41,066 nt of DNA from Cryomorphaceae bacterium (GTDB lineage Bacteria; Bacteroidota; Bacteroidia; Flavobacteriales; Schleiferiaceae): contig JAIUMB010000003.1 of the NCBI GenBank assembly GCA_022565745.1, positions 1-41,066 on the forward strand. The letters are read 5' to 3'. A program made the translations under genes and the position numbers. How positions within the stretch are numbered: position 1 is the first letter of the stretch; each line of letters opens with the position of its first letter. Positions 651 to 5,029 of this stretch are shown piece after piece. The notes below the pieces were generated by a model that saw only the letters and a program-made list of their open reading frames with translations, searched no databases and was not told the origin of the DNA.

Positions 651-909
651 CTCACAAAACAAATCTCTGCGTGCAAGAATATGAAGTTGGATGAAACACT
701 TTCCGCACATTCATTAAAAATCAGAAGCGGATTTTTTTCGCGGACTTATTCTCATAATATCGCCTGAACACCATCCTCATCCCCAATACAAGCCTTGGGT
801 TTCTTGCCTATATTTGCACTTGATTCAAATATTTTAAAGAATTTGATGTTAAAGTAAAATGGAAGTGACCATCGACAATTGGAATCGGTCAAATGGTAGT
901 GAAAGTATA

Positions 910-1063
910 ATTAGAGCTTGTCCATAAAGTCTAGTGGCTAGGCTAGAAAGTTCGAGAGCAAGGCTTGCGAAGGTTGAAAATCAAGGAGTTTACTAAAGTA
1001 AATGACTGGATTTTCAACCGAGCATAACGAAGCTATCGGACTTTATAGACAGCCACTAATTAA
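910..1063. repeat. MITE-like imperfect inverted repeat (long hairpin element)
   Basis: Termini attagagcttgtccataaagtc and gactttatagacagccactaat are near-complementary. Perfect 11-bp stem GGTTGAAAATC (972-982)/GATTTTCAACC (1009-1019), with inner TTTACT-aa-AGTAAA (989-1002). Confidence 0.7.
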
Positions 1064-1249: not shown

Positions 1250-1292
1250 CATAACGAAGCTACCCTACTTTATACACAGCCACTAATTAAAC
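1250..1292. repeat. Second direct copy of the right arm of the hairpin element (copy 1 at 1023-1065)
   Basis: cataacgaagctaccctactttatacacagccactaattaaac versus cataacgaagctatcggactttatagacagccactaattaaac: 39/43 identical, ungapped. Confidence 0.85.
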
Positions 1293-4471: not shown

Positions 4472-4830
4472 CAACCGACCAGCCGACTTGTCGCTCCGCA
4501 AGGGGAGGAAAGTCCGGACAGCATAGAGCAGCATGCCCTGTGAAAGCGGGGGCGTCCATTGCCATATCGATGGATGACAGATAGTGCCACAGAAAAAATA
4601 CCGCCGTTAAACTTCGGTTTAAAGGTAAGGGTGAAAAGGTGAGGTAAGCGCTCACCGCTTCATTGGCAACAGTGAAGGCAAGGTAAACCTCATGCGCTGC
4701 AAGGCCAAATAGATGAGTGAAGTGGAGTGGCTCGCTTCTGTATCTCTTCGGAGATTGCGCTCATGGGTAGGCCGCGTAGATAAATGACAAGTTGGAAACA
4801 GAATCCGGCTTATGAGCTGGTCGTTTTTTT
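4472..4830 (+). ncRNA. rnpB: RNase P RNA (bacterial type A-like)
   Basis: Conserved blocks gaggaaagtccggac, acagatagtgcca, ggtaagggtgaaaaggtg, gtaaacc and agataaatgacaagttggaaacagaatccggcttat. P1 pairing cgaccagc (4476-4483)/gctggtcg (4816-4823), followed by a T-tract. Confidence 0.95.
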
Positions 4831-4849
4831 TCACCAAATAGAAGATGTT

Positions 4850-5029
4850 ATGGCAAAATTAAAAGTGTCTCAATATCGCACAATACTTAAAGAGGAGGGA
4901 TGGAAAGGTCTGGTGATTAAGCTTGGCCCAAAAGCCGCTATTCTTCTTTTTTTATTCTTTCTTGGGAAAGGACTTGTTTGGTTGTTTATTTTTTATGGTG
5001 GATATGAATTGATTAAAAACGCATTCTGA
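4850..5029 (+). CDS. Small (59 aa) hypothetical membrane protein
   Basis: Internal ATG gives MAKLKVSQYRTILKEEGWKGLVIKLGPKAAILLFLFFLGKGLVWLFIFYGGYELIKNAF. The track start at 4784 lies inside rnpB. Confidence 0.55.
   Translation: MAKLKVSQYRTILKEEGWKGLVIKLGPKAAILLFLFFLGKGLVWLFIFYGGYELIKNAF

Follow-up and report, generated by a model that had tools for sequence, protein, structure and literature searches.

An imperfect hairpin between two genes

The window, by which we mean the whole stretch of 41,066 nucleotides that was analysed (Cryomorphaceae bacterium, assembly GCA_022565745.1, contig JAIUMB010000003.1, positions 1 to 41,066 of the forward strand), carries between a HipA-C gene and a DUF2237 gene a long imperfect hairpin element which contains no open reading frame of 80 or more amino acids (Table 1). 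A sequence-only reading of this region had described a miniature inverted-repeat transposable element (MITE)-like hairpin, and all of the sequences it quoted are found at 910-1063. The near-complementarity that it saw in the outer ends is real, GAGCTTGTCCATAAAGTC pairing with GACTTTATAGACAGCCAC, and the 11-bp stem GGTTGAAAATC/GATTTTCAACC and the TTTACT-aa-AGTAAA at 989-994/997-1002 are likewise present; the boundaries, however, had to be redrawn, since the quoted ends 'attagag...cactaat' include part of the TAATTA target-site duplication (TSD). The right end has two possible left partners, the outer terminal inverted repeat (TIR) or the inner arm, and the hairpin that is conserved in relatives is the inner one. 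The RNA fold reaches -58.9 kcal/mol vs -31.6 +/- 3.7 in dinucleotide shuffles (z = -7.5), and the DNA fold of the element is also extreme (z = -6.9). The conserved junction of the terminal hairpin may be formed by tandem G-A pairs. An Rfam search with the element matched no curated family.

Table 1. Parts of the element and a neighbouring right-end copy, in window positions.
Feature	Position	Strand	Basis or remark
Left target-site duplication TAATTA	908-913	+	Sequence; family-wide TSD test
Element proper	914-1056	+	143 bp
Left (outer) terminal inverted repeat GAGCTTGTCCATAAAGTC	914-931	+	Sequence, alignment; decayed in old copies
Core hairpin, 125 nt (model R1)	933-1057	+	Conserved and covarying unit in relatives
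Left inner arm AGTGGCTAGGCTAGAAAGTTCGAGAGC	933-959	+	Pairs with right end (columns 1-27 with 103-128)
Conserved left internal-loop sequence AAGGCTTGCGA	960-970	+	Alignment of copies
5' side of variable covarying stem GGTTGAAAATC	972-982	+	Covariation
Terminal hairpin GGAGTTTAC..GTAAATGA	985-1005	+	Stem nearly invariant; conserved GGAG/TGA junction
3' side of covarying stem GATTTTCAACC	1009-1019	+	Covariation
Conserved right internal-loop sequence and inner arm GAGCATAACGAAGCTATCG	1020-1038	+	Alignment
Right terminal inverted repeat GACTTTATAGACAGCCAC	1039-1056	+	Sequence, alignment
Right target-site duplication TAATTA	1057-1062	+	Sequence; family-wide TSD test
Solo right-end copy CATAACGAAGCTACCCTACTTTATACACAGCCACTAATTAAAC	1250-1292	+	9 bp before DUF2237 gene

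The genes downstream in the window have no DNA match in the other four genomes of the genus and were therefore of no use in a comparison with empty sites. Short dispersed repeats of the type 'attcgtggcg / attcgtgtccattagtggc' lie near elements, at 480-660 of the window and in the 5' flank of locus L011. Further along, the RNase P RNA (RF00010) at 4475-4828 overlaps the first 45 bases of the listed open reading frame 4784-5029, the start of which is therefore probably further in.

A dispersed family with terminal repeats and target-site duplications

The element has 22 matches in its own genome, part copies included, or about 20 copies. Among 60 relatives compared, each of the four other members of the genus has at least 13-17 matches, and a few weaker ones occur in three further genera. 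The family is abundant across the genus, in each of its five genomes, and occurs sporadically in other Cryomorphaceae; the named records that carry it are metagenome-assembled genomes (MAGs) of Cryomorphaceae/Flavobacteriales. Of 398 genomes of the order searched with a covariance model of the core, 10 contain it; among the genomes searched the family occurs only in Flavobacteriales, its hosts being a group of soda-lake members of that order. Carriage by viruses, phages or plasmids was rejected: the core pattern had no match in the viral search, the 16 viral contigs that matched the TIR pattern were all without the core, and the plasmid and phage searches gave no match.

The features of the family were read from 50 aligned copies, which are the best-matching ones of a larger number and come from MAGs in which genes were called as long open reading frames. 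These copies begin and end with GAGCCTGTCCATAAAGTC and GTGGCTGTCTATAAAGTC within a duplicated 6-bp TAnnTA site (TAATTA, TAAGTA, TATTTA, TAAATA and others), the 18-bp TIRs being GAGCYTGTCCATAAAGTC / GTGGCTGTCTATAAAGTC. Identity between the two flanks is highest when exactly 6 bp are compared without any offset, at 78% vs 65% for permuted partners and with none of 300 permutations as good; of the 31 copies whose left end can be recognised, 15 have a perfect duplication and 20 have at most one mismatch. Element-free orthologous sites were found at L033, L044, L049 and L056, while at L003 and L002 a relative has a right-end copy only where the window's species has a right-end copy together with a full copy, a pattern that fits later insertion beside the right end, or possibly deletion between two right ends. 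The empty sites looked for on the strength of the sequence-only reading thus exist at the level of orthologous loci but not to the base, no base-exact one having been obtained among the loci compared because the intergenic DNA of these species has diverged. With a length below 300 bp, no transposase gene, TIRs, a TSD and presence or absence at orthologous sites, the family shows these features of a bacterial MITE, and the earlier view of the element, which a single copy with neither homologues nor a flanking duplication, or a known structured RNA, would have refuted, proves largely right. That view did not include the location at stop codons, the retention of decayed copies or the finding that it is the inner hairpin which is conserved.

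The copies differ in their interior. About 20 of the 50 carry an 18-bp palindrome CCCCGATAGCTATCGGGG or a variant of it after the left internal-loop sequence AAGGCTTGCGA, and CCTAAAACCTTCGGTAAGGG is found at the right internal loop; these insertions give size classes of 137-139 nt and 160-164 nt (L031, L047, L005, L025 and about 16 others, as well as L052, L061 and L064). Solo right ends occur at L003 (1341-1500), L054 (1940-2010), L067 (4330-4440) and L120 (about 1636) besides the one in the window, and several such half copies have a different interior, so that they were rejected as degraded relics only. Some solo right ends follow a different, GGGGTTAGCCTTGCGCTAACCC-like hairpin, which suggests a second MITE family with the same right end. 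Simple repeats of the GACTAAGACTAAGACAATGAC type are found at many places in the window's genome (G000) and in G001 (left flank of L049; G000:C18, C198 and C23).

No transposase with these ends was found in the five families searched (IS1595, DDE_Tnp_1, Y1, DUF772 and DDE_Tnp_1_2) in MAG assemblies, which often lose IS copies. The element is thus non-autonomous as had been supposed, the proposed search for an enzyme with matching TIRs came back empty, and mobilisation in trans is something that we infer from the TIRs and the TSD. The end sequence had suggested an IS1595 parentage, which was rejected as no PF12762 match was obtained in five genomes and the TSD is 6 bp, not 8 bp; the DDE_Tnp_1 loci L072-L080 lack matching TIRs, and the weak match of the model in L072 appears to be fortuitous. 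Near an IS1182-like pseudogene at G001:C43 there are GTGGCTGTCTAGAAAA-like sites in the same orientation and no hairpin, and this candidate too was set aside. An attC site, considered on account of the long imperfect hairpin, is argued against by the TIRs and TSD. Genes resembling TnpA-REP subclass 2.6 (motifs YIHQNP/YVHNNP/YLHQNP) were seen at G006:2155892, G006:2830094 and G032:C206, where they are flanked by long hairpins of their own that are unrelated to the element.

Placement at stop codons and maintenance of the hairpin

Whereas the copy in the window is not at a stop codon, 24 of the 50 copies have to their right an oppositely oriented gene whose stop codon lies in the TSD or directly at it, either inside the TSD or composed of its TA and the first G of the element. 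The corresponding arrangement at the left end is found in at most five copies, and in the 188 kb of DNA around the copies a stop codon is touched by only 12 of the 165 TAnnTA sites that lie in non-coding sequence; the excess is therefore both large and one-sided. Stop codons of orthologues that are element-free or have a right end only, read by hand from alignments, coincide with those of the genes beside the element, or lie no more than two codons away, at four of five loci (L033, L044, L049 and L002), from which it follows that the genes are mostly not truncated by the element. Truncation by a stop codon that the insert supplies was thus mostly rejected, with exceptions at L056, where the G004 orthologue appears to read past, and at L049, where three of four orthologues stop within two codons and G000 seems to read further. 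The left-hand genes show no strand bias. At three loci (L006 1299, L054 2171 and L062 2927) a tRNA-Arg gene, with anticodon CCG or UCU, starts 5-8 nt past the element on the same strand. The papers searched yielded no report of insertion directed to stop codons.

This placement bears on the strongest alternative, a purely selfish MITE in which the hairpin would serve transposition only, through the transposase or through single-strand recognition, while the sites at stop codons would result from the choice of TAnnTA together with the purging of harmful insertions. TIRs and TSDs are what such an element would have, and the tandem nested copies with one common TSD at L058 fit it. A share of stop-codon sites that amounts to about 7% of non-coding TAnnTA vs 48% of the copies, on one side alone, and a bias of about 24 to 5 between right and left ends nevertheless speak against it. 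The same explanation attributes compensatory changes in the hairpin to palindrome correction or to different active sources, and different stems could indeed reflect different source lineages.

Covariation was assessed in 26 copies without internal insertions over 38 predicted pairs. Pairing is kept in 96% of cells, and double changes occur in 19 of the 38 pairs (66 cells), which exceeds all 500 shuffles (0/500) and lies far above slid controls; helix 5, the 11-bp stem, has double changes in seven of nine pairs. This strong covariation, together with the absence of an Rfam match, upholds the earlier suggestion of an RNA-forming repeat. Because the relatedness of the copies inflates covariation tests, two independent lines of evidence were sought. 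In 16 copies the outer left repeat has fallen to 22-44% identity while the core still has an identity of 0.82 and the right end one of 0.90; no convincing alternative duplication was seen in these copies, whose loss of the left repeat could partly reflect a subfamily with another left end. L006 and L054 are orthologous: both lie beside the same tRNA-Arg and have the upstream gene in common (95.6% identity between the proteins), and although their flanking intergenic DNA is largely unalignable the core differs at nine sites only, six of which make up three compensated pairs of the inner stem (T-A to C-G, G-C to A-T and A-T to G-C), one in the consensus structure and the last two read by hand in a register shifted by one base. 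L104 and L089 have both neighbouring genes in common (about 83% protein identity) and L088 has the same adjoining flank sequence; all three keep the hairpin, and changes in the outer stem are compensated on both sides. These observations support maintenance of the hairpin after insertion, even in copies that have probably lost the ability to move, by selection on base pairing rather than on mobility. Template-switch correction of imperfect palindromes can also produce compensatory changes, but such correction should remove the mismatches of the conserved asymmetric internal loops as well, and most copies still have these loops. Since the hairpin is kept in copies without a left end and TSD, and the differences between orthologous copies fall on both sides of the stem, we regard the purely selfish reading as unlikely, though it deserves to be taken seriously.

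The varying pairs contain 36 G-U cells vs 12 A-C cells, G-U is constitutive at two pairs, and in 46 of 50 copies the better fold is that of the + strand, all of which points to pairing in one strand, as RNA or as single-stranded DNA. A single-stranded DNA element on the + strand, like a REP sequence or the end of an IS200/IS605 element and moved by a tyrosine (HUH) transposase, would account for this asymmetry and the tolerance of G-T, as for the conserved mismatches in the stem, and a TnpA-REP subclass 2.6 with atypical dispersed structures is indeed known from Bacteroidetes (PMC6006769). TIRs with a 6-bp TSD are not expected of Y1 enzymes, however, and no Y1 gene above threshold was found in the window's genome, G001 or G004; those found elsewhere are flanked by other hairpins, none by the element, and a Y1 partner was rejected. 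We consider such an origin improbable. Least credible of all is a conventional structured RNA, a regulatory leader or small RNA spread by duplication, which would agree with the covariation and with vertical retention at some loci but has against it the TIR/TSD architecture, presence and absence at the same site between species, the lack of association with any single gene class and the Rfam result.

Where a stop codon adjoins the right end, the better-pairing + strand is antisense to the gene in question; this, with the lack of strand bias in the left-hand genes, makes a poor fit to a simple 3'UTR role, and the element has no U-tract or other signature of an intrinsic terminator. By analogy with ERIC and NEMIS (PMC2229807, PMC10969869), the hairpin most likely acts in RNA at transcript ends.

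Relation to known elements and meaning

The reading that we favour, and judge to be probable, is that of a non-autonomous ERIC-like MITE with a selected, strand-specific hairpin that probably acts in RNA at gene ends. The 18-bp ends would be recognised by a transposase supplied in trans, which would insert the element into TAnnTA with duplication of the 6 bp. Copies would accumulate at gene ends, mostly with the stop codon of the opposite gene on the right in the target site, and a stop codon so placed would leave the gene at full length. Once the element is inserted, its outer left end would decay, while the 125-nt hairpin would be held by selection on pairing; in the presumed transcript it would form a 3'-end or intergenic RNA structure that may protect, process or end the neighbouring transcript. 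A bolder version, which we put forward tentatively and hold to be somewhat doubtful, is that native stop codons or transcript ends are what the transposition machinery is directed to, and that the hosts have taken over the hairpin as a transferable 3'-end RNA module, kept by compensatory evolution once one end is lost and the copy immobile.

ERIC (also IRU or RU-1) of enterobacteria is a dispersed, intergenic imperfect palindrome of about 127 bp with TIRs and a TSD that forms a hairpin in transcripts, and at the 3' ends of Yersinia genes an effect on mRNA has been reported (PMC2229807, PMC10969869). From its description it resembles the present family in size, imperfect palindromy, dispersal, intergenic location, TIRs and TSD; the host phylum is unrelated, however, the target of ERIC is the dinucleotide TA in place of a 6-bp TAnnTA, and the concentration exactly at stop codons and the orientation bias are features of the present family. 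The YPAL (RU-2) hairpins of Yersinia, of about 168 bp and reported to be transcribed with upstream genes, likewise have TSDs and filled and empty sites, but their TSDs range from 3 to 26 bp, they have internal inverted repeats and they target other dyad symmetries (PMC2229807). The Correia/NEMIS elements of Neisseria have TIRs of about 24 bp, an RNA hairpin processed in mRNA and size classes from internal insertion (PMC2229807), the TIRs and size classes being the common features; they differ in their TA target and host, and the insertions of the present family are palindromes in internal loops. With REP/RAYT sequences, including the TnpA-REP subclass 2.6 (PMC6006769), the family has in common that it consists of dispersed strand-asymmetric hairpins in Bacteroidetes, whereas no associated Y1 gene was found for it, and it has TIRs and a TSD and is much longer. 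The family therefore belongs to a known kind, the bacterial MITE with a structured transcript, and is a distinct variant of it by its stop-codon placement, its one-sidedness and its compensatory retention after the loss of one end. It is apparently undescribed, no description having been found in the papers searched, which is not proof of absence.

It is an old question, raised by ERIC, NEMIS and BOX, whether the hairpins of bacterial MITEs are no more than selfish or persist as regulatory RNA parts. The present family offers a natural experiment on it: many of its copies lie at native stop codons, related species lack the copy, some fixed copies have lost one end, and the covariation allows selection for the hairpin to be told apart from selection for mobility. 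Insertion directed to stop codons, if true, would moreover be a useful target preference.
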